From Cyanobium sp. WAJ14-Wanaka (GTDB lineage Bacteria > Cyanobacteriota > Cyanobacteriia > PCC-6307 > Cyanobiaceae), in assembly GCF_024345375.1 (NCBI RefSeq), contig NZ_JAGQAZ010000001.1, positions 1,026,661 through 1,090,660 on the forward strand: 64,000 nucleotides of DNA, in the 5' to 3' direction. The notes below the pieces were generated by a model. That model had not been told where the DNA came from. It did no database searches and was given only the letters and a program-made list of their open reading frames with translations. A program made the position numbers and the translations under genes. Positions 2,649-51,927 of the stretch are shown one piece after another. Position 1 is the stretch's first letter. Each line of letters starts with the position of its first letter.

Positions 2649-3245
2649 CTAAGGCGCCAACCACCGCCTCAGCAGGGGCAGGCTCAGGCCAATCACATTG
2701 GAATAGCAGCCCTCAATTCGCTCCACCAGGCTTCCGCCCCGGCCCTCCAGGGCAAAGCCACCGGCGCACTGCAAAGGCTCACCAGTGGCCACATAGGCAT
2801 GGATCTCAGCTTCGCCCACCGAGGCAAACTGCACCCGGGTGGTGACCGTTGTGAGGCGTTCGCCTTGCCCTTCATCAGCATTTACAGGGGCTGGCAGGAG
2901 GCAATGGCCCGTGTGCAGCTCCGCCCAGGCCCCGGCCATCCGCCGCCAGCGCGCAATCGCCTCTTCTGCATTGGCCGGCTTACCAAACACTTCTCCCTCA
3001 AACACCAAGAGAGAATCGCAGCCCAAAACGGCCTGGCCACCAACGACGTGGCCATCTCGATCGGCGCCGTGGGCCAACAACGAAACCGCCCGGGCCTTGG
3101 CCTGGGCCAAGCGCTGCACCAGGGCAATGGGGTCTGAATCAACGATCGAATCCTCATCAACACCACTCACCTGCACCCGGTGGGGGATGGCGGCCTGCTC
3201 CAGCAGGCGACGGCGGGCAGGGGAAGCTGAAGCAAGAACCAACAT
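2649..3245 (-). CDS. maf: Maf family nucleotide pyrophosphatase
   Basis: Maf proteins hydrolyse non-canonical or modified nucleoside triphosphates to monophosphates. The 198-residue protein opens with [17 protein letters not shown], the family's N-terminal motif, and carries the conserved [10 protein letters not shown] segment near residue 75. Length is normal for the family. The gene converges on psbC and lies divergently from the conserved protein at 3275. A septum-inhibition role is also known for some Maf proteins and cannot be excluded. Confidence 0.93.
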
Positions 3246-3274
3246 CGGCGCAGGGGATTAGGGAGAATCACTCC

Positions 3275-3670
3275 ATGCAACACCAGTCGGCCCCATCCGT
3301 TGGCGATCTGCTCCACGATCAAAGGGCCATCGATCGGGCCTCCCTGGCCCTGCGCTGCCTCCCCTACCTGCGGGCCTTCTATGGGCTTGTGGCTGGCACA
3401 GCCCTTGGCAGCGCTGAACTCAACCAGCGACCTGATGCCCGCAAACTTTGCCCCCGCCCATTGGCTGCCGATCGGATGGAGGCGGATTGGATCTGGCTGA
3501 TCCAACTTGGGGTGCTACGCCGTGAAGTGGATGGCCAGGGCCTCACCCACAGGGTGCGCCTCACCCCAATGGGCCGCCGAGTGTTGCAGGGCTGGCAAGG
3601 GGAGATTCCCCGGGCTGGCCTACTTAAATCGCTGCGCAACGCTTTTAGGAGACACAAACCACGCTGGTAG
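3275..3670 (+). CDS. Conserved cyanobacterial protein, Npun_F0494-like
   Basis: A 131-residue protein with no signal peptide or membrane segment and a basic C-terminal end. The central stretch WIWLIQLGVLRREVDGQGL followed by RLTPMGRRVL resembles, from memory, the cyanobacteria-specific family called Npun_F0494. The fold looks like a small winged helix, which is inference only, and no biochemical role is known to me. It is transcribed divergently from maf, with 29 bases between the two starts. Confidence 0.65.
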   Translation: MQHQSAPSVGDLLHDQRAIDRASLALRCLPYLRAFYGLVAGTALGSAELNQRPDARKLCPRPLAADRMEADWIWLIQLGVLRREVDGQGLTHRVRLTPMGRRVLQGWQGEIPRAGLLKSLRNAFRRHKPRW

Positions 3671-3706
3671 ACGAACCCAGCCCCCTAATTGCGCTGTAGC
3701 ATTTTT

Positions 3707-3719
3707 GTACAACTTGTAC
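3707..3719. promoter_or_regulatory. Candidate operator of the antitoxin-toxin pair
   Basis: GTACAA-C-TTGTAC is a 6-bp inverted repeat with a one-base centre, placed 13 bases before the likely GTG start of the antitoxin. TTGTAC occurs twice here and a partial TTGT follows. Antitoxins of this class commonly bind palindromes in their own promoter, so autoregulation is the likely role. The role is inferred. Confidence 0.5.
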
Positions 3720-3731
3720 GTATTGTCCACG

Positions 3732-3953
3732 GTGGAAATCACGTTGAGGAAAACTGGCGGATCCGTTACCGCCACAATTCCAGGCGAAATGGCACGTCGT
3801 TTCCATCTCGCCCCGGGCGACCGGATCCAGGCCATTGAAACTGAGCAAGGCATACTCCTGACCCCCTTCGATCCAACTGTGCAGGAAGCTCTCGCCCTAG
3901 CTTCCGACGCAGCCCGCCAGTATCAAAACGCCCTCAGAGAGCTCGCCCATTGA
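3732..3953 (+). CDS. AbrB/MazE-type antitoxin
   Basis: A 73-residue antitoxin that would neutralise the Doc toxin encoded next to it and repress the operon. The sequence after the start (VEITLRKTGGSVTATIPGE) is the swapped-hairpin AbrB/MazE DNA-binding fold, with the C-terminal part (DPTVQEALALASDAARQYQ) expected to wrap the toxin. I chose GTG 3732; TTG 3723 in the same frame is an alternative. The stop overlaps the toxin start by four bases, the coupling usual in type II systems. Confidence 0.85.
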   Translation: MEITLRKTGGSVTATIPGEMARRFHLAPGDRIQAIETEQGILLTPFDPTVQEALALASDAARQYQNALRELAH

Positions 3954-4351
3954 ACCTGCTATCGGAACCCCGCTGGGTTCCTGCTATCGCCGTGACAGCG
4001 ATGCACCATCAGCAGATTCTTGAGCATGGTGGTCTTCAGGGCATCCGATCCCAGTCCACATTGGAAGCAGCTCTGGCCAGGCCGCAACAGCGCTGGAGCT
4101 ACGGCGAGCTGCAGTCAATTCCAGCTATTGCAGCAGCCTATGCAGAGGCCATCGTTCGTGCCCACCCATTTTCAGATGGCAACAAGCGCACGGGATTGCT
4201 TGTTGCCTTGGTCTTCCTTGGCCTGAACGGCTGTGCTTTCAATGCGTCCAACGAGAGCGTCGTGTCGACGATCCGGCGGCTCGCGGCAGGAGATTTGGCA
4301 GGGCCGGATTTGGAGGCCTGGTTCAACAGCCACTGCGGCAGCAGAGAATGA
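3950..4351 (+). CDS. doc: Death-on-curing (Doc) family toxin
   Basis: Doc proteins are Fic-fold kinases that phosphorylate elongation factor Tu and stop translation. The 133-residue protein has the intact active motif [11 protein letters not shown] from residue 72, matching HxFx(D/N)GNKRT. The start is TTG, overlapping the antitoxin stop (TTGA). Its stop TGA overlaps the ATG of cobQ, so the pair sits directly in front of a core gene. All key residues are present, so it appears functional. Confidence 0.9.
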
Positions 4352-5898
4352 CCATGGCACGACCCACTCCCCTCATGGTGCTTGGCACCTCCAGCGGTGC
4401 CGGCAAGTCGTTGATGACGGCCGCCCTCTGCAGGGTGTTGCGACGTCGCGGCGAAACGCCCCTGCCCTTCAAGGGGCAAAACATGAGCAACAACGCCTGG
4501 GTGGACCAGGCCGGCGGCGAGATGGCCTATTCCCAGGCGCTGCAGTCGTGGGCGGCGGGCCTGGAGCCCCAGTGCCCCATGAATCCGGTGCTGCTTAAAC
4601 CCCAGGGTGACAGCACCAGCGAGGTAATCCACCTGGGCAAGAGCGTGGGCAATGCCCGGGCTGAGCATTACTACCGGGATTGGTTTCGCCCCGGTTGGGC
4701 CGCCATCCGCACCGGGCTCGAGCAACTGCAGGCCGCCTATCCCGGCGGTCGGCTGGTGCTGGAGGGGGCCGGCAGCCCGGTGGAGGTGAACCTCCAATCC
4801 CGCGACCTGACAAACCTGCGGCTGGCCCAATACCTAAGGGCCCGTTGCATCCTGGTGGCCGACATCGAGCGGGGCGGGGTATTTGCCCAGCTGGTGGGCT
4901 CCCTGGCCCTGCTGCGGCCAGTGGAGCGGCCCCTCATTAGGGGCCTGTTGATCAATCGCTTCCGGGGCCGCCGCGAATTATTTGACGAAGGGCGCCGCTG
5001 GCTGGAAAAGGAAACCGGGATTCCGGTGCTTGGCGTAATGCCCTGGCTGGATGAGTTATTTCCGGCAGAAGACTCCCTCGACTTGCTGGAGCGCCGCGGC
5101 CGCAAGATTGGCGCTGAGCTTGAGATCGTGGTGCTCAAGCTGCCATCGCTCAGCAATTTTTCCGATCTGGATCCCCTGGAGGCCGAACCAAGCGTGCAAC
5201 TGCGCTGGGTCGCCCCGGGGGAGGCGCTGGGCAGCCCCGATGCGGTGATTGTGCCCGGCAGCAAGCAGACCCTGCGGGACCTAAAAGCCCTGCAAGCTGC
5301 GGCCCTATGCAGCGAACTGCAGAGCTTTGCGTCAAAGGGCGGCCACGTCTTTGGTATCTGCGGCGGCATGCAAATCCTTGGCCTGGAGCTCAGTGACCCT
5401 GGCGGACTAGAAGGCGGCGAAGGGGGCGATAACAACCAGGGATTTGGCCAGGGATTTGGCCAAACAGAAGGTCTGGGCCTGCTGCCCCTGCGCACCGTTT
5501 TCGGCGGCCCCAAAGCCCTGCTACAGCGCAGTAGCCAGGCCCTTTGGCCAGCTGCGCTGAGCTTCAACAGCAACGGGAGCAACTGCGAAACCCTCCAAAT
5601 TGAAGGCTTCGAACTTCACCGCGGCAGCACCCAGGCCCTAGCCCCCTGCCAGCCGCTCTGCGCCGACGCCGAGCTGGGCTGGGTGGCAAACAACGTGGCC
5701 GGCACCTACCTACACGGCGTATTTGAGAGCGGCCCCTGGCGAAGGCGCTGGCTCAACCATCTGCGACAGCGCAAAGGATTGGCGTCCCTAAATGAATGCC
5801 AACCCCACCACAGCCAACAAAGGGAGGCATTGCTTGATCGTCTGGCCGATGCCTTTGAGCAGCACGTAAATCTGGAGCCCCTTCTGAACAGGCAATGA
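4348..5898 (+). CDS. cobQ: Cobyric acid synthase (glutamine-hydrolysing)
   Basis: CobQ amidates four side-chain carboxylates of the corrin ring using glutamine and ATP, late in cobalamin synthesis. The 516-residue protein has an N-terminal P-loop-like [18 protein letters not shown] and a C-terminal glutamine amidotransferase domain with the nucleophile elbow [11 protein letters not shown] glycine-rich insertion near residues 350-375 contains a short duplication (GFGQGFGQ), probably a surface loop. The ATG overlaps the toxin stop; ATG 4354 is a second option. Its last 11 codons recur beyond the FUSC insertion at 8032. Confidence 0.96.
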
Positions 5899-11931: not shown

Positions 11932-13947
11932 TTGGAACTACCGATTGATCACTTCCGGTTGCTTGGTGTGGGGCCAACCACCGATGCCCAATCGGTTCTG
12001 CACACCCTGCAGCAACGGCTCGATCGCCCGCCAAGCCAGGGCTTCACCCCGGAAACCCTGCAGGCCAGAGAAGAATTGCTGCGGGCAACGGCAGATCTCC
12101 TCAGTGATAGCGACCGGCGCCTGGCCTACGAAACCGACCTTACGGCCATCTCGACGGCGGCCGGCGCGGCCATTGCAGCCCTGGATGTGTCCTCAAGCCT
12201 GGAGGTGGGTGGTCTGCTGCTGCTGCTCGAGGCAGGCCAGCCCCTGGAGTGCTTTGAACTAGCCAGTCGCAGCCTGCAACCACCCCAGGCACCAGCCCTA
12301 GGCAGTGGGCGCGAGGCAGACCTGGCCCTTCTGGCTGGTCTGGCGGGCCTGGCCGGAGCAGCCGATTTACACGCCCAACGCCGCTATGAGGGCGCCGCCC
12401 AAATCCTCAAGCAGGGTCTGCAGGTGCTCCAGCGCATGGGCCAATGGCCCGCCCTACGCCAGCAACTCAGCGATGAGCTGGAGGGCCTCACCCCCTACCG
12501 GGTACTCGATCTACTGAGCCGCAACCTCACCGCCAGCGGCGAACGGGCCGAGGGCATGGCCTTACTCGAGGACTTGGTCAAACGCCGCGGCGGCCTCGAT
12601 GGAATCGCTGATCCGCTCCTGGACAGCGAGCAATTTGAAGCCTTCTTCAAGCAAATCCGCGCCTTCCTGACCGTTCAAGAACAGGTGGATTTGTTTAGTC
12701 GCTGGGCAGATGAAGGCGAAATGCCCCGCTCGGCCAAGGCCGATTCCCTGGCCACAAAAGCCCTCACCGCCTCGGGCTTTGTCCAACGCAAACCCGATCG
12801 CATTGCCGCCGCCAAACAACGGCTTCAGGCCTGCAAAGAAGCGCAGCCCGAAACCCTGCTGGCCTGCCTGCATTTGCTTCTGGGCGAAGTGGAGCAGGCA
12901 AGGGCCCTGTTTGAAAAGGGTGCCAGCCCGGCCCAAAAGCAGTGGGTAGCCAGCCAGAGCAGCGACCCCCTTGCCCAACTTTGCGCCCACTGCAGCGACT
13001 GGCTCAAGCGCGATGTGCTGCCCGGCTATCGCGACCTGGAGGCCGATGCCGACCTGGAGGCCTACTTCGCCGATCGCGATGTGCAGGCCTACGTGGAACG
13101 CCATGACCCCAAAATCCCAGCACCGTTTGAACAAACGGCCCCGTCCCTGGCCCTAGGGGGCCCCAACCCATTTGCCGTAGGCCCCGCCCAAGCAAATCAG
13201 TACGACCAAGACGACCAAGACGATCAAGACGATCTAGAGGACGAACCCTGGCTGGATTCGCTGCTACCCAATTGGCAGTGGCCGGATAACTGGCGCTGGC
13301 CCGAAAACTTGCAGTGGCCCCAAAACTGGGGCCTGCCCCAAAACCTGATCCCCAGCAGGCCCAGCAAAAACCAATGGGGCGCCGCTGCAGCAGCCCTAGT
13401 CGTGGCAGTGGGGGCAGCTGCGGTGGTTTCGAAGCTCGCAAACCAACCGCAAACCAGCGCCACCAACAAACCGGCACTGGCTATCAAGCCCGCCGCCCCA
13501 AAACCAGCCCCCCCCAAGCCCCCGGAGCTGGTGCCGGCGGCAGTGCCCCTCGTAGCCGCTGAGCCCAACGATGACCAGGTGCGCGCCCTGCTGGAGGCCT
13601 GGCTAGCGGCAAAGGCCGAGGTTTTGGCTGGCAAAAACAGCAAAGAGAGCCTCGAGGCCATGGCCAGGCCAGCGCCGATCGAACACCTCCAGGCCCAACG
13701 GGCCACGGACCAGGCCAGCGGCACCACCCAGCAGATCAGCACCCGCATCACCAATTTTGAGATCGATCAACGCAGGGCCAACCGCATTGCCGCCGACGTG
13801 AGCCTCGAATACCGCGAAACCGTGCTCGATGCGGCCGGCAAGCCCCAGGGCCCCACCAGCACCATGACCCTGCGCAATCGCTACGTTTTTGGCCTGGACG
13901 GAGGCAGTTGGCGACTGGTCTATTACGAAAAAGTCCCTAACCAATAG
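11932..13947 (+). CDS. ftn2: Cell division protein Ftn2/ZipN (ARC6 homologue)
   Basis: Ftn2 anchors FtsZ at the division site in cyanobacteria; ARC6 is its plastid counterpart. The 671-residue protein begins with a DnaJ-like domain (DHFRLLGVGPTTDAQSV) and continues with helical repeats. It has one membrane segment near residues 483-503 (AAAAALVVAVGAAAVV) and a C-terminal IMS-type domain after a Pro/Ala linker. Just before the membrane segment lie an Asp-Gln run (YDQDDQDDQDD) and a Trp-Pro repeat (NWQWPDNWRWPENLQWP). The start is TTG 11932, which gives the conserved MELPIDHF opening. Confidence 0.9.
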   Translation: MELPIDHFRLLGVGPTTDAQSVLHTLQQRLDRPPSQGFTPETLQAREELLRATADLLSDSDRRLAYETDLTAISTAAGAAIAALDVSSSLEVGGLLLLLEAGQPLECFELASRSLQPPQAPALGSGREADLALLAGLAGLAGAADLHAQRRYEGAAQILKQGLQVLQRMGQWPALRQQLSDELEGLTPYRVLDLLSRNLTASGERAEGMALLEDLVKRRGGLDGIADPLLDSEQFEAFFKQIRAFLTVQEQVDLFSRWADEGEMPRSAKADSLATKALTASGFVQRKPDRIAAAKQRLQACKEAQPETLLACLHLLLGEVEQARALFEKGASPAQKQWVASQSSDPLAQLCAHCSDWLKRDVLPGYRDLEADADLEAYFADRDVQAYVERHDPKIPAPFEQTAPSLALGGPNPFAVGPAQANQYDQDDQDDQDDLEDEPWLDSLLPNWQWPDNWRWPENLQWPQNWGLPQNLIPSRPSKNQWGAAAAALVVAVGAAAVVSKLANQPQTSATNKPALAIKPAAPKPAPPKPPELVPAAVPLVAAEPNDDQVRALLEAWLAAKAEVLAGKNSKESLEAMARPAPIEHLQAQRATDQASGTTQQISTRITNFEIDQRRANRIAADVSLEYRETVLDAAGKPQGPTSTMTLRNRYVFGLDGGSWRLVYYEKVPNQ

Positions 13948-20240: not shown

Positions 20241-20951
20241 ATGCGACTGGATGTGGTCAGCCTGGCCCCGGAGGCCTTCATGCCGCTGCTGGCGCTGGGG
20301 GTTATCGGCCGCGCCTTTAGTGCCGGCATCGCCGAACTCCATACCCACAACCCCCGCGACTTCGCCACGGACCGGTACCGCAAGGTCGACGACGAGCCCT
20401 ATGGCGGTGGGGCGGGGATGGTGCTCAAACCGGAGCCGGTCTTTGCGGCCTTTGAATCCATCCCCCTGCAGCTGCAGCGACGGGTGCTGTTGATGAGCCC
20501 CCAGGGCAAACCGCTGGAGCAGGCCGATTTACGCCGCTGGGCAACGGGCTATGGGCAGCTGGTCTTCCTTTGCGGCCACTACGAGGGCTTCGACGAACGC
20601 ATCCGCAGCCTTGCCGATGAGGAAATTTCGATCGGTGATTTCGTGCTCACCGGTGGGGAGTTACCCGCCGCCGTGATCATCAATGGGGTCGTGCGACTGC
20701 TACCCGGCACCGTGGGTACGGCCGCCTCCCTAGAGGAGGAAAGCCACAGCACCCTGCTGCTCGAGCACCCCCACTACACCCGTCCGGCAGATTTCCGGGG
20801 CATGGAGGTGCCAGCGGTTTTGCGCTCCGGCGACCATGGCGCCATTGCCCGCTGGCGCAACCAACAACAGCAGGAGCGCACGGCACAGCGCCGCCCAGAC
20901 CTATTCAGCCGCTGGGAAGAGCAGCAGCCGAATCGCATCCCGCTCAGCTGA
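20241..20951 (+). CDS. trmD: tRNA (guanine37-N1)-methyltransferase
   Basis: TrmD methylates G37 next to the anticodon and prevents frameshifting. From ATG 20241 the protein has 236 residues, with the trefoil-knot SAM site (LCGHYEGFDERI, then ISIGDFVLTGGELPA) and the conserved YGGGAGMVLKPEP near the start. The frame continues upstream but over the lyase gene. This is the last core gene before the accessory block that runs to ispF. Confidence 0.97.
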   Translation: MRLDVVSLAPEAFMPLLALGVIGRAFSAGIAELHTHNPRDFATDRYRKVDDEPYGGGAGMVLKPEPVFAAFESIPLQLQRRVLLMSPQGKPLEQADLRRWATGYGQLVFLCGHYEGFDERIRSLADEEISIGDFVLTGGELPAAVIINGVVRLLPGTVGTAASLEEESHSTLLLEHPHYTRPADFRGMEVPAVLRSGDHGAIARWRNQQQQERTAQRRPDLFSRWEEQQPNRIPLS

Positions 20952-21128
20952 GGTAATAGCGCCTGGTCTCAGGCCGCGGGGGGTGGGGAAAAAATGGTTG
21001 ATGGAAATTCCCCTGCTTATTGGAGCCTGAACCAGAGGCTCGTAGAGGCGAGGCGCATGTCAGCCAAAAAGCTCTGATCAGGTTTAGAAAAGTGGCTTAG
21101 AGCGGCCCGTAATTGAAAACAGCAACCC

Positions 21129-22391
21129 CTAAATGCGCCACAAAGTGGCGAGCGGGACCGCCCATAACCCCTTACCCATCGGCAAGGTCTCACTGCCGTC
21201 ATACAGCACAAAGCCCCCGATAAACGAATCCCCAGCCAGATCAGCCAATCGCCGCAAGCCATCGAAATCCCGGCCCTGCACCGAGGCCTTGGCCTTCACC
21301 TCAACCCCCACGATCTGGCCAGCACTGTTTTCAATTACCGCATCCACCTCCCTCTGGTCCCTGTCGCGATAGCTCAGCATCTGCAGATCACCATTGCTCC
21401 AGCTGGCCAGCTTGATCAACTCACTGACCACAAAGCTCTCGAGCAATGGACCAAAGCGGGAACGGTCACTCTGCAGGCTGGCCGTGTTGCAGCCGAGCAG
21501 GTTGGCCAGCAGGCCGGAATCCAGGAAATGCAGCTTCGGGGTTTTCACGATTCTCGAGAGGCGGTTGCTCCACCAGGGCTGGATACGCCGCAACAAAAAC
21601 AATTGCTCAAACACCCCCAAATATTTCGATGCCGTCTTGTGGTCCAATCCCACCTGCCCAGCCAGCTGATTCACATTGGTGAGCTGACCTGCCATTGATG
21701 CCAGGGCGCGCAACAGTCGAGGCAGCTGCTCAAGCTTGTCTATATGGGCAATGTCGCGAACATCGCGGCTGAGCAGAGCACCGGTGTACTGACGCAGCCA
21801 AGACTCACGCCGCCTACTTGACTCTCGGGCCACGGCTTCTGGATAGCCGCCGCGCAGCACCCGCTCCACCAGCCCATCGCCCTGGTCGGCAACCATTCGA
21901 CCGCCAGCTAGCCGGGGGACCTCTCCGTTGAAGACCATCTCCAGCCATAGCCCTTCGCTGCCCTCAAGTTCACAACCAGCCAGCGGCAGCAGGGTCTGCA
22001 CCTCCATGCGCCCGGCTAGGGAGTCGGCCACGGCGGGCAGGGTGCGCAGATCAGCTGACCCCGTCAGCAGGAAACGACCCGGTCTGCGGTCGGTATCCAC
22101 AGTTCTCTTTATCGCCAACAGCAGCTCTGGGGCTCGCTGGACCTCATCGATCACGGCCCTATTCAGGCTCTCCACAAAACCAGTGGGATCCTCCCTGGCC
22201 GAGAGCAGTGTGGCGGCATCGTCGAGACTGAGATACCGAAAGCCATCCGAAGCCATTGATGCAGCAAGGGAGCTGGCCAAGGTGGTCTTGCCCGCCTGCC
22301 GCGGTCCGTTGAGCAGCAGCACCGGCGTATCGGCAAGGGCCTCCCGCAGCAAGGGGGTGAGACGGCGCGTCAACAGCGGCCTATTCGCCAT
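21129..22391 (-). CDS. AAA ATPase with DUF4143 domain
   Basis: A 420-residue protein from ATG 22391 (MANRPLLTRRLTPLLREAL). Walker A is GPRQAGKTTL near residue 35 and Walker B AVIDEVQRAPELL near residue 90; the LLTGSADLRTLP sensor follows. The C-terminal half is DUF4143 with EVDAVIENSAGQIVGVEVKAKA, which resembles a PD-(D/E)XK nuclease core (D, E and K present). The family is common in accessory DNA and its role is not settled. It looks intact and sits behind an unusual 22-bp repeat array that may control it. Confidence 0.85.
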   Translation of the reverse strand: MANRPLLTRRLTPLLREALADTPVLLLNGPRQAGKTTLASSLAASMASDGFRYLSLDDAATLLSAREDPTGFVESLNRAVIDEVQRAPELLLAIKRTVDTDRRPGRFLLTGSADLRTLPAVADSLAGRMEVQTLLPLAGCELEGSEGLWLEMVFNGEVPRLAGGRMVADQGDGLVERVLRGGYPEAVARESSRRRESWLRQYTGALLSRDVRDIAHIDKLEQLPRLLRALASMAGQLTNVNQLAGQVGLDHKTASKYLGVFEQLFLLRRIQPWWSNRLSRIVKTPKLHFLDSGLLANLLGCNTASLQSDRSRFGPLLESFVVSELIKLASWSNGDLQMLSYRDRDQREVDAVIENSAGQIVGVEVKAKASVQGRDFDGLRRLADLAGDSFIGGFVLYDGSETLPMGKGLWAVPLATLWRI

Positions 22392-22402
22392 GCTCTCCCC
22401 CC

Positions 22403-22490
22403 GTCCAGATTGGTCCAAGTTAGCGTCCAGATTGGAATCTGCCAGCGGCCAGATTGGAATCTGGGGCCGTCCAGATTGGATTCAAAGGCT
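22403..22490. repeat. Four 22-bp tandem repeats upstream of the ATPase gene
   Basis: The core CCAGATTGG occurs at 22405, 22427, 22449 and 22471, exactly 22 bases apart. The third unit forms a perfect inverted repeat, CCAGATT-GG-AATCTGG, and the second differs from it by one base. The array fills almost all of the 101-base gap between the selO stop and the ATPase start. A spacing of two helical turns places the sites on one DNA face, as in operator arrays. Confidence 0.9.
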
Positions 22491-22492
22491 GG

Positions 22493-24229
22493 TTAAGAAG
22501 AGCAGCTGTAGTGCGACACGCCGCCGGCGTTGAAGAACTGCCTGGGCTTGAGGCGGTCGTATCGCGACGCCAGATCCGCCGGTGGTGCTTCGTAGGGCTG
22601 GCTGAACAGGGCCTGCAGCTCCTGGATCAGGGTCGTGTCCCCTTGGGCCGCCTGTTCATAGGCCGGAGCGACCAGCCACTCACGCCAAGTGATGGCGGGG
22701 TTGACGCGTTTCATGGCCGCAGATGTGGCAGCCAAATCGCCGTTGGCTGAGATCTGCCCACGCCAACGCTTAAGCCAATCGCCCCATTGCCGATCTAGCT
22801 CTGCTGAGCTGGGCAGGTAGAAGCTCTCCTGCAAAGCCGCGTACTGCTCGGGGATGGTGGCGTGCATCTCTGACAGGCGGCGGAAAAAGATCGTGTAATC
22901 CAACTTGGAAGCAAGCATCAGCTCAAGCAGTTCGTTCACCAGGGCGGCATCGGGGCTGCCTAGGCCGAGCTTGCTGGCCCACATCGCCTCGAGCGACCGG
23001 TTCATCGCCTCAGCAAAGCCCTCGCGGATCTGGTCAAGTCGCGTCAGGGCCTGGGTGTTGCCCTCAAGCAGGGGCCGGATCGCAGACCAGAACATCTGGT
23101 AGTTGGCTTCGGCGGCAAGTGGTTGGTTGAAGAAGCTGAAATGCTCGCCGCCACCGGTCCAGGGTTGGAAGCCAGGGTCAAATAGTTCGCAGAAACCAAA
23201 GGGGCCGTAGTCGAGGGTGTAGCCGCCAGCGGCGCAGTTGTCGCTGTTGAAATTGCCCTGGCAGTAGCCCACCCGCAGCCAGTGGGCCACCAGAGACGTG
23301 AGTCGGGCGCGAAACAAACCGGCCAGCTCCAGCACCTGGTCGGTGAAGTCCAGGTTTGGATCGATCTCAGGCCGGTAGTTCCGCTCAATCAGGTGCGCCA
23401 CGATCATGCGCAGTTCGCCCAGTGCAGCTGGATGGGCCTTGCTGCGGACCCTGCGGGCAAACAGCTCCAGCTGGCCCACCCGCAGAAAAGACGGCGCCAC
23501 CCGGGTGGTGATCGCCGCTGGATTGTCCACCAGGATGTCGGGATCAAACGAGCTGGAGTTGGGGGAATACCAGGGCCGGCGCACAGTTTCGGAGCCAGAC
23601 GCATAGAGCGTCAAGGAGCGCGAAGTGGGCACGCCAAGGGCATGCACCAACTCCTGGGCCAAAAACTCGCGCACGCTGGAGCGCAACACGGCCCGACCAT
23701 CGGCGCCGCGGCAGTAGGGCGTTGGGCCGCCGCCCTTGAGCTGCAGCTCCCAGCGCTTGCCATTGAACAGGCCTTCAAAAATGGAGATGGCCCGGCCATC
23801 GCCGTAGCCATTGCCAGTGCCGAAGGGGCACTGCTGGATGTATTCGGTGCCGTAGATCGAGAGGGCATAACCGGTGGCCCAGCCAAACGGCCGCATCGGC
23901 TCCGTGGCAACGCTGATGTCGCCGGAAAACAGCAGGCGGAAGGCCCGGTCGTGGGCCAACTGATCAGCCAAGCCGAGTTCATTGAATAGGGATGGGCTGT
24001 GGGCTATGTATCGCGGCTGCGGCAGCGGCTTCGGCGTCACCGGCACGTAGTGGCCGGAGAACACCTGGCGGGGCCGGTGATCCAGGCCATCGCCGCTGGC
24101 CTGGGGATCCACCTGCAAGGCATCCAGCAGCGAATAGGCGGCGCAGCCGGCAAATTCAGCAAAGGTGGTGGCAGGCATCGGCTCGACCTTGGGGTTGGCT
24201 TCAGTCAGCCTGGTAAGGGGAAATGTCAT
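22493..24229 (-). CDS. selO: Protein adenylyltransferase SelO
   Basis: SelO is a pseudokinase-fold enzyme that transfers AMP to Ser, Thr or Tyr of target proteins, in E. coli as a redox-stress response. The 578 residues include [30 protein letters not shown], the [21 protein letters not shown]-type catalytic region and [10 protein letters not shown]. Cysteine lies third from the C-terminal end (SCSS), where animal SelO carries selenocysteine; the codon here is TGC. The ATG overlaps the stop of the ParE-type toxin; MPATTFAEF at residue 18 is an alternative start. Confidence 0.94.
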
Positions 24230-24522
24230 GCTCGATCACTCCAATAGCCAGGCTGTCGATGGAGATGCATGACGGCCAGAATCAGAACTGTTGATCGTTT
24301 CTCATCAACGAAATAGATCACGCCATAGGGGAAGCGGTGAACCAGGCAGCGACGAACCTCGTAATCCAGCATGGGCCATAGATTTGGGTTGATCTTGATT
24401 CGCTCAACGGCCGCGAATATCTCGACGGCGAATTGATATCCAAGTCTTCGCTCGCTGTCCTCGTAGTGGCTGATGGCACGATTGAGCTCTTCCCGTGCGT
24501 CAGGATGGAAGACGATCTGCAT
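24226..24522 (-). CDS. RelE/ParE-family toxin
   Basis: A 98-residue toxin of the RelE/ParE fold ([17 protein letters not shown], then [18 protein letters not shown] and [12 protein letters not shown]). Members either cleave ribosome-bound mRNA or poison gyrase; the sequence looks nearer to ParE, which is an impression. It begins at the last base of the antitoxin stop and its own stop overlaps the selO start (ATGA). The core strands are intact, so it should be functional. Confidence 0.88.
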
Positions 24523-24743
24523 CAGTTCAATCGCCGCCAGATCTCATCAAAAACGTCATCACCAGCAACGGGCTTAACGGCGCCAGTACGAATGTCTTTC
24601 AATCGCTTTGCAGCCAGATCAGCCCACCGCCGATCAACATCAGAGACCGTTGGATTGAGGGAACGGAGAATACAATCAGCTACTCGAGTCCGTTCCTCTA
24701 CGGGTAGTGATTGAATTTCCAGAATCAGGTCTTCGGTTTTCAT
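24522..24743 (-). CDS. Antitoxin of the addiction-module (Unstab_antitox) type
   Basis: A 73-residue protein from ATG 24743. The opening IQSLPVEERTRVADCILRSLN and the middle ADLAAKRLKDIRTG are characteristic of short antitoxins that accompany ParE/RelE toxins. The stop overlaps the toxin start by one base. The frame is open upstream to 24812, but residues before ATG 24743 are not typical. The antitoxin-first order is the standard one and predicts autoregulation. Confidence 0.87.
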   Translation of the reverse strand: MKTEDLILEIQSLPVEERTRVADCILRSLNPTVSDVDRRWADLAAKRLKDIRTGAVKPVAGDDVFDEIWRRLN

Positions 24744-25224
24744 AATGATTTGCCAGCGTTGGTCCAATCCTAGCTGTTTTTTCCGTGAATGATTGGATGG
24801 GTTGTTGACCATGCTGACCAGCAGCTGAGCATGGGAAAGACCACGGGCAGAATGGCCTATAGGCTGGAGTAGCTGATACCACGAGCCAACTATGGTTTGC
24901 CCTCCTGTCGAACGATCCGATGGGCCTTACTTAGGGCTAGTGATGAAAGGCCTCCTGCAGGAGAGAAGGGGATTACCCCAACCCCGCCATCACAAGCAAG
25001 AATGCCGCCTGCCGGCAGGAGGCATTTGTGCGGATAAGAGCAAGCACCTCAGCCATTCCCTCGGCGGTGACAACGCTAGACGCATTGCAGGCAGTTACGG
25101 CCCAGGCTCATCAATATTCATGGCAAAGATTGCTAATTCTTGGCGGGCAAAGAACAAGATCAACTGGCACGTGTCTCTGAAGCAGGGCTGCTCATCTGAA
25201 CTTAATTTGAGTGTCTTTTTTGCT
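24744..25224. other. Intergenic stretch without a supported gene
   Basis: About 480 bases between the antitoxin start and the restriction-system scar. It contains the near-perfect hairpin at 25001-25026 and a similar short element near 24950 (GGCCTCCTGCAGGAG). An open frame of 134 codons crosses it on the + strand, but its composition is not protein-like. I see no remnant of a known gene. Confidence 0.6.
25001..25026. repeat. Near-perfect inverted repeat
   Basis: AATGCCGCCTGCC is followed at once by GGCAGGAGGCATT: two 13-base arms with one mismatch and no spacer. No T-run follows on either strand, so it is not a standard terminator. It could be a protein-binding site or an element end. Confidence 0.6.
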
Positions 25225-51327: not shown

Positions 51328-51927
51328 ATGGCCCACACGCTGCCCGCGCTGCCCTACGGCCTCGATGAGCTCGAGCCCCATATTTCCCGCTCCACCCTGG
51401 AGTTTCACCACGGCAAGCACCACGCTGGCTACGTCACCAACCTCAACAACCTGGTGGCGGGCTCAGACCTGGAAAGCAAAAGCCTCGAAGACACCGTCAA
51501 GGCAGTTGCCGGTGATGCTGGCAAGGCCGGTGTGTTCAACAACGCCGCCCAGGTTTGGAACCACAGCTTCTACTGGCAGTGCATGAAGCCCGGTGGTGGT
51601 GGCCAACCCACTGGCGCACTGGCCGAGAAGATCACCGCTGACTTCGGCAGCTACGAAGCCTTCGTGGAGCAGTTCAAAACCGCCGGTGCCACCCAGTTCG
51701 GCAGCGGTTGGGCCTGGTTGGTGCTCGATGGCGGCACCCTCAAGGTCACCAAAACCGCCAACGCCGACCTGCCCCTGGCCCACGGTCAAACCGCCCTGCT
51801 GACCATGGATGTCTGGGAGCACGCTTACTACCTCGACTACCAGAACCGCCGCCCCGACTACATGACCACCTTCCTTGAGAAGCTGGTCAACTGGGACTTT
51901 GTGGCAGCAAATCTGGCTGCCGCCTGA
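51328..51927 (+). CDS. sodB: Iron superoxide dismutase
   Basis: SodB converts superoxide to oxygen and hydrogen peroxide in the cytosol. The 199-residue protein has metal ligands in the FHHGKHHAGYV helix, NHSFYW, and DVWEHAYYLDYQNRRPDY. The glutamine in NNAAQVWNHSFYW and the QFGSGWAWLV segment favour iron rather than manganese. It converges on queA, with two bases between stops. katG at 56452 would dispose of the peroxide formed. Confidence 0.96.
   Translation: MAHTLPALPYGLDELEPHISRSTLEFHHGKHHAGYVTNLNNLVAGSDLESKSLEDTVKAVAGDAGKAGVFNNAAQVWNHSFYWQCMKPGGGGQPTGALAEKITADFGSYEAFVEQFKTAGATQFGSGWAWLVLDGGTLKVTKTANADLPLAHGQTALLTMDVWEHAYYLDYQNRRPDYMTTFLEKLVNWDFVAANLAAA

Follow-up and report, generated by a model that had tools for sequence, protein, structure and literature searches.

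The gene of an AAA_14/DUF4143 ATPase in Cyanobium sp. WAJ14-Wanaka is preceded by an array of four repeats, which is probably the cognate operator of the ATPase encoded directly after it: the units would be read by protomers of the protein at two places, the likeliest use of the array would be autorepression, and array and gene would be mobile together as a cassette. Similar arrays precede related genes in several bacterial phyla. Bases 4, 5, 6 and 12 of the repeat unit track residues 250, 252, 251 and 344 of the protein, respectively, and the repeat travels with the gene; the ATPase, therefore, most likely reads the array and, judging from these sequence comparisons, we hold it very probable that it physically binds its own array. 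Throughout, the window denotes the whole stretch of 64,000 nucleotides that was analysed; the coordinates of the features are collected in Table 1.

On the plus strand, CCAGATTGG is found at 22405, 22427, 22449 and 22471, in exact 22-base steps, giving three pairs at this spacing with zero mismatches in the window. If up to three mismatches are tolerated, one further pair appears, at 51908, which is unrelated; dinucleotide shuffles of the window contain a mean of 0.21 such pairs, and none of 100 reaches four, which bears out the original prediction of a four-unit, 22-bp array. The exact pairs are also the only ones in the 2.14 Mb genome, in which CCAGATTGG, counted by itself irrespective of spacing, occurs 26 times (the array's four counted in). 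A genome-wide search with TTCCAATCTGGMCG, allowing up to two mismatches, returned 29 matches, four of them from the array, versus 8 for the reversed pattern, and no second array is seen among the matches listed. A better description of the repeat unit takes the minus strand, along which the ATPase gene runs, and divides it into a 15-bp core (consensus ATTCCAATCTGGACG or close) and a free 7-bp linker. Elsewhere in the window, at 13273-13344, there is a different tandem repeat, with an 18/36-bp unit that contains GGCCCCAAAACT.

Table 1. Coordinates of the array, its proposed reader and the arrays on viral contigs (window positions, unless a viral contig is named)
Feature	Position	Strand	Basis or remark
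AAA_14/DUF4143 ATPase gene (PADLOC PDC-S01), proposed array reader	21129..22391	-	Pfam, PADLOC profile, AlphaFold
Codon R344, loop preceding E348/D350 of the PD-(D/E)XK-type domain	21360..21362	-	Tracks base 12
Codons D250, H251 and K252, start of helix 251-263	21636..21644	-	Track bases 4, 6 and 5, respectively; codons checked
Array of four 15-bp units, 22-bp steps	22402..22482	-	In register with 76 other loci
Unit 1, AATCCAATCTGGACG	22468..22482	-	Repeat analysis, register with other loci
Unit 2, ATTCCAATCTGGCCG	22446..22460	-	Repeat analysis, register with other loci
Unit 3, ATTCCAATCTGGACG	22424..22438	-	Repeat analysis, register with other loci
Unit 4, GGACCAATCTGGACG	22402..22416	-	Start codon 10 bp further on
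SelO gene, upstream neighbour, outside the array-ATPase unit	22493..24229	-	Pfam; ends just before the array
ATPase-less viral array, L191	8531-8565		
ATPase-less viral array, L192	7171-7205		
ATPase-less viral array, L194	60-94		
ATPase-less viral array, L195	530-564		
ATPase-less viral array, L196	13480-13514		
ATPase-less viral array, L197	1840-1874		
ATPase-less viral array, L198	6599-6633		

The array occupies the gap from the SelO stop (22493) to the ATPase start (22391). The claim that it fills the promoter region goes beyond this: a sigma-70-type consensus scan of 22300-22700 found neither a promoter nor a terminator. The perfect palindrome ascribed to the third unit has arms of 7 bases each, separated by a central GG; we take it as incidental, because the linker supplies part of it and it is not seen in two close orthologues (L034 and L035). 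An RNA-level explanation was considered and rejected: an Rfam search of 20900-25000 gave no match, and the fold of the array RNA is no better than those of shuffles (z = 0.21). On the far side of SelO, a ParE-type toxin gene overlaps the SelO start by 4 bases, with an antitoxin gene upstream of it (24226-24812); no such pair was found in the flanks retrieved for 15 further SelO loci from the genus.

The encoded protein scores well above the curated Pfam cut-offs for both DUF4143 (E = 1.3e-43, 149 bits against 28.1) and AAA_14 (E = 1.5e-23, 83.6 bits against 27), and its residues 5-419 match the PADLOC profile PDLC04790 of the phage-defence candidate PDC-S01 with an E value of 1.6e-166. According to the available part of the source paper, PDC-S01 proteins combine an ATPase with a fused domain of the PD-(D/E)XK superfamily (PMC12988326). 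The AlphaFold model is of high confidence (mean pLDDT 90.4, pTM 0.91) and shows an ATPase domain; helices 220-231, 240-246 and 251-263, the last of them followed by a strand; and a C-terminal alpha/beta domain, the part called PD-(D/E)XK in that paper. In our reading of the model, the helices and strand would form a winged-helix module, with 251-263 as its recognition helix. The top fold matches are the archaeal ATPases 2qen (Z 15.9, 254 residues, rmsd 4.5) and 2fna (Z 15.4, 256 residues, rmsd 3.8), followed by plant and animal NLR-type ATPases by fold (RPP1, Z 14.5; CED-4, Z 13.6) and Avs5 (Z 11.9); RuvB, Cdc6/Orc1 (2qby, Z 10.3) and DnaA are also among the matches. A sequence search of the PDB gave nothing convincing, the best E value being 0.12.

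At least 551 relatives were confirmed in genome contigs. The 80 best of them (best-segment identity 47-80%) served as the sample of homologous genes, and their flanks were compared with themselves by taking the best 16-base match at each lag; 79 of the loci had sufficient upstream DNA. At lag 22, the upstream self-match reaches 11/16 or better in 65 of these 79, and at lags outside 21-23 and 43-46 it does so in a mean of 1.83 loci (maximum 5). On average, the best self-match is 12.57 for lag 22 and 11.52 for lag 44, against 8.10 over the lags outside those two ranges; among lags up to 30, a lag of 22 or 23 comes first or ties for first in 72 of the 79 upstream regions. The lag-22 controls gave 3/80 in the gene body, 8/79 downstream, and 4/76 and 7/77 in two distant regions. 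The search of relatives that the original prediction had called for has, thus, found 22-bp arrays in front of ATPase homologues, and these contradict the possibility that the repeat is absent before all homologous genes. Weak repeats only are seen at L084 and some others of the 79 upstream regions; two Thermus homologues (L131 and L132; 42-44% identity, start codons unsure) have no array, and L130 (44% identity) has a palindrome in its place.

Scanning each locus with its own consensus recovered two or more in-register units between -260 and +20 in 75 of 76 loci. Of the 203 unit pairs in this interval, 188 lie on the gene's strand and 15, a point against the proposed operator, on the opposite strand; outside it there are 2 in 502 kb, one at L050 and one at L075, the latter being AT-rich and, we take it, a chance match. 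At L050, an extra two-unit copy of the array (4373-4409) lies some 178 bp past the ATPase gene and runs in the same direction. Units could be placed in 77 loci, the window included (three of the 80 were left out for frame breaks and one for want of upstream sequence): the step is 22 bp in 72 of them and 23 bp in 5, and 69 have three or four units. The last 100 bp before the genes average 49% GC versus 59% for the loci overall. On the tree, the hosts form 13 groups, with Pseudomonadota in the majority (55 of 78 rows), and the feature of the array that is conserved across the homologues is the two-turn step. As a matter of general knowledge, slippage can yield repeats of this size, and a tandem repeat without function might be entertained on that ground; it is scarcely credible here, as the period is kept despite sequence divergence and the unit covaries with the protein.

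This covariation was scanned over 420 protein columns and 15 repeat positions, i.e. 6300 pairs, in 77 loci weighted for similarity (effective number 32.3). H251 paired with base 6 ranks first (z 14.1), ahead of D250 paired with base 4 (z 10.8) and K252 paired with base 5 (z 9.5), and the residues concerned are consecutive and lie at the start of helix 251-263; the ranking of the columns is a partial control for kinship, because all columns share one ancestry. Asp250 goes with C4 (0.99, n = 36), and Ser, Asn or Thr at this position with T4 (0.78, 0.80 and 1.0; n = 28, 5 and 5, respectively). Lys252 goes with C5 (0.97, n = 45), and Val, Ile or Pro with T or A. At position 251, His (0.84, n = 19) and Arg (1.0, n = 5) are found with C6, Asp and Glu with G6 (0.97 and 1.0; n = 17 and 2, respectively), and Ser with A6 (0.81, n = 25). 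The window is itself an exception: its protein has His251, which goes with C6 elsewhere, but A6 is present in all four units.

When these associations were applied to new loci from viral contigs and plasmids, bases 4-6 were predicted correctly in 26 of 29 cases, versus 8 of 29 by the commonest base, with units placed without the use of bases 4-6. The mispredicted cases are Ser250 in L128 and L129 and Ile252 in L142, and Ala252 of L129 had no prediction. The set comprises 10 of 23 new loci, and the prediction is not fully blind, since these were picked after the upstream regions had been viewed; the others were a copy (L115, of L114) and 12 loci (L130-L141) that belong to other subfamilies or have no clear 22-bp array. 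Tree-independent pairs point the same way. For residue 251, His or Arg accompanies C6 in about 6 of 6, and Ser, Thr or Val accompanies A6 in 6 of 6, with none opposite (median p = 0.031 in each of the two tests, which overlap); for residues 250 and 252, about 3.6 and 1 pairs, respectively, are concordant and none opposite, neither reaching p < 0.05 alone.

The original prediction had envisaged cooperative binding by a repressor, either the ATPase itself or an unlinked regulator. A host regulator that binds the array has in its favour that an association between residues and bases remains a correlation, and that it was one of the two alternatives offered at the outset. It is, nevertheless, very improbable: variation in the motif tracks residues of the ATPase, the best-ranked columns lying in the putative recognition helix, across 13 host groups, plasmids and viral contigs, and a separate regulator would need to change in step. 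The spacing argument of the prediction stands in the conserved two-turn step, the evidence favours the ATPase as the reader, and repression itself is plausible rather than established.

A second contact is indicated at the other end of the unit. Once the new loci are included, which brings the total to 87, no protein column ranks above residue 344 for bases 11 and 12: Lys or Arg at this position is accompanied by G12 in 74 of 74 loci, and other residues by a base other than G in 13 of 13. Three of three tree-independent pairs agree and none is opposite, which does not reach p < 0.05 alone. With weaker support from the tree, Lys or Arg344 tends to occur with A13 or C13 (67 of 74 rows), and Asp345 with G15 (69 of 70 rows with Asp, but also 7 of 17 others). 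Here, too, the window departs from the pattern: Arg344 is mostly found with C13 elsewhere, yet three of its four units have A13. The residues expected to be catalytic are kept, namely, Glu348 (87/87), Asp350 (87/87), Glu364 (85/87) and Lys366 (86/87). One protomer may, thus, span a unit, with the winged helix on its left half and the PD-(D/E)XK-type domain on its right.

The apparent reading of the array by a PD-(D/E)XK-type domain that retains Glu348, Asp350, Glu364 and Lys366 would also suit an assembly or parking platform, which would hold the bound nuclease-ATPase inactive or poised, control of expression being a side effect. STAND-type ATPases are, moreover, among the fold relatives (2qen, 2fna, RPP1, CED-4 and Avs5), and several of these have been solved as oligomers. 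The position of the arrays speaks against such a platform, which we consider unlikely: the median distance from the end of the final unit to the start codon is 11 bp, and in other clades inverted pairs occur at this place, as in operators. Since the arrays lie this close, and reach the start codon itself in 21 of 74 loci, repression is plausible, and autorepression is the use of the array that we think likeliest, with rather better than even confidence on the sequence evidence.

Comparisons of the flanking DNA tie the array to the gene. SelO is present in 15 of 16 genomes of the genus (the present one included), and at 15 SelO loci of the other genomes the similarity to the window stops within a few bases of the SelO stop, with no ATPase found in flanks of up to 1.5 kb. 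Among 388 sampled genomes of the class, seven have a match to the ATPase at E ≤ 1e-40, and below 1e-100 there is only its own genome; the close orthologues L034 and L035 were drawn from another collection. In 16 pairs of related cassettes compared for the extent of shared DNA, five share the array and the gene and little beyond: L034/L035 (-126 to +1), L041/L043 (-92 to +3), L039/L042 (-68 to -2), L066/L072 (-61 to +27, and a separate stretch of 68 bases farther upstream) and L111/L112 (-85 to +63). In the remaining pairs, the similarity runs 140 to about 3000 bases upstream, as expected for the flanks of close relatives. From the five pairs, we conclude that the array travels with the gene. 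L111 and L112 form a natural insertion pair, in which a 95%-identical cassette (approximately 2878-4301 and 2869-4262, respectively) occupies two sites about 1.5 kb apart on a shared backbone, each site being empty in the other locus.

The array might instead serve as a terminal sequence that the ATPase, or some other enzyme, uses to mobilize the cassette. The similarity begins exactly at a unit in four of the five short-flank pairs (the first in L111/L112 and L041/L043, the second in L039/L042 and L066/L072; the start of L034/L035 is not at a unit), the L111/L112 cassette is found at two sites, each empty in the other, and L050 has its second two-unit copy after the gene. However, units are constrained and flanks are not, which alone may end the similarity at a unit; by eye, the empty sites of L111 and L112 have no unit and no clean target duplication, about 20 bp being replaced at one of them; and in the 76 loci scanned, a convincing pair of units after the gene was found in L050 only. 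We, therefore, regard an end sequence as improbable. No transposase was found among the window neighbours examined, i.e. SelO, the ParE-type toxin and its antitoxin, a tRNA m1G methyltransferase, a CpeS-like protein, a GTPase with a KH domain and two small ORFs with no family assignment.

Comparable sites are found before more distant DUF4143 genes. A search of the phylum gave matches in 51 of 291 genomes, from which 30 loci were taken, one per genome and best-scoring (some are near copies, and the window's gene is included). Sites at the start codon, either direct repeats with a step of 22, 23 or 33 bp or nearly perfect inverted pairs, occur in 23 of the 30; the downstream controls gave 3 of 30, with 2.9 expected. 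Inspected by eye, other clades have 23-bp direct arrays or inverted pairs in the same place, often at the start codon, and no clear site was seen at L009, L131, L132, L136 and L140. Repeats at 33 bp, or three turns, precede the start codon of the DUF4143 genes L175, L178, L179, L180, L184, L185, L187 and L189. Three genomes of the phylum (G462, G556 and G425) have 11 or 12 DUF4143 matches each at E ≤ 1e-20. That such genes can be regulated follows from the Thermus DUF4143 gene TT_P0211, which, according to the part of the report available, rises 6.6-fold in the joint presence of Argonaute and plasmid DNA (PMC4406477).

The arrangement has likenesses among characterized systems. The iterons of plasmid Rep proteins are repeated directly, with a step of about 22 bp, next to a gene that encodes a winged-helix protein, and some Rep systems have inverted half-sites in the control region of the gene itself; archaeal Orc1/Cdc6 initiators combine an AAA ATPase with a winged helix and have ORB repeats beside their gene. 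The present locus resembles the former in its ~22-bp direct repeats beside the gene of a putative winged-helix protein and in the inverted sites of other DUF4143 clades, and the latter in an AAA ATPase with a predicted winged helix and repeats beside its own gene. It differs from Rep systems in that the protein is of an AAA, winged-helix and PD-(D/E)XK type and its units are apparently read at two places, and from Orc1/Cdc6 in that the closer folds are the archaeal ATPases 2qen and 2fna. An array with an origin-like function in replication could be argued from the repeat length, the position beside the protein's own gene, and the presence of RuvB, Cdc6/Orc1 and DnaA among the fold matches; we rate this as most improbable, for the gene sits on a 1.2 Mb contig, adjoining SelO, and no initiator family, neither Rep nor Cdc6, is among the Pfam hits at E ≤ 0.001, the likeness to 2qby being one of fold only. 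Restriction controller proteins and BrxR/CapW are separate small regulators that control a defence locus. The ATPase gene would be like these a defence-type gene under a DNA-binding protein of its own locus, but unlike them in that the presumed effector would be its own regulator.

We, thus, prefer an operator read by the ATPase itself. One protomer would bind each 15-bp unit and read it at two places, with residues 250-252 of the recognition helix contacting bases 4-6, and residue 344, in a loop of the C-terminal PD-(D/E)XK-type domain, contacting base 12. The 22-bp step, being two helical turns, would place the protomers on one face of the DNA, so that several could bind side by side near the start codon; the ATPase would, thereby, repress its own gene and keep its own level low, until released by foreign DNA, by a change of nucleotide state or by loss of the protein to other sites. 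Array and gene would move jointly as a cassette. The side-by-side occupancy, the releasing signal and any role in defence are points that we infer.

Arrays of related type are also present on viral contigs. Searches with two-unit, 22-bp patterns identified eight such contigs, one by one type of pattern and seven by another; no array of the window's type was found in viral contigs, and the pattern of the seven gave none when spaced at 25 bp or reversed. The ATPase gene is present on one of the eight (L193, the contig of L117), and the ATPase profile gave no match on the whole records, which may be fragments, of the other seven. These seven represent five distinct phages, since the array of L194 is also that of L195, and L196 and L198 likewise have one in common. 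L195 contains a thymidylate synthase region common to Roseobacter and other marine phages (about 65-75% identity over a quarter of the query at most), and L198 matches, over a short stretch (up to 7% of the query), genes for virion RNA polymerase in Sinorhizobium phage ort11, among others; these similarities do no more than suggest the hosts. The units of L144, which lies on a plasmid of the roseobacter Salipiger, are of one sequence type with those of the viral arrays. Named phages contain seven distant homologues of the ATPase (25-32% identity), and two array-type queries found no match in them. The idea that the viral arrays might be IS21-type ends was set aside, as no such product is evident by eye among the nearby ORFs.

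The ATPase-less viral arrays are possibly decoys, targets or relics. It is conceivable, although we offer this only tentatively, that a suspected defence ATPase-nuclease reads a private array through a winged helix and a nuclease-type domain, by means of a residue-base code and with the array moving along, and that phages infecting the hosts of such genes (L194/L195, L196/L198, L191, L192 and L197) carry cognate arrays, but no ATPase gene, as decoys by which the protein is drawn away; the array would then be a battleground of defence and counter-defence.

As far as the available part of the report extends, PDC-S01 ranks fourth in frequency among the defences of prokaryotes, 29,494 systems having been detected in Bacteria and 9,986 in Archaea, and it counts as a candidate defence, most candidates of this sort still awaiting experimental validation; neither an operator nor an array nor a code for DNA recognition is mentioned there (PMC12988326). 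Nor was a description of such an array found in the parts consulted of the open-licence literature; the names DUF4143 and PDC-S01 are themselves scarce in that literature, despite the reported abundance. The array provides a concrete handle on the family, since both the sequence-specific DNA binding of the ATPase and a counter-defence role for the phage arrays are testable, and a cognate array with a residue-base code would make binding sites predictable from the protein sequence. If the proposal is correct, the family would include a STAND-like ATPase whose winged helix reads DNA.
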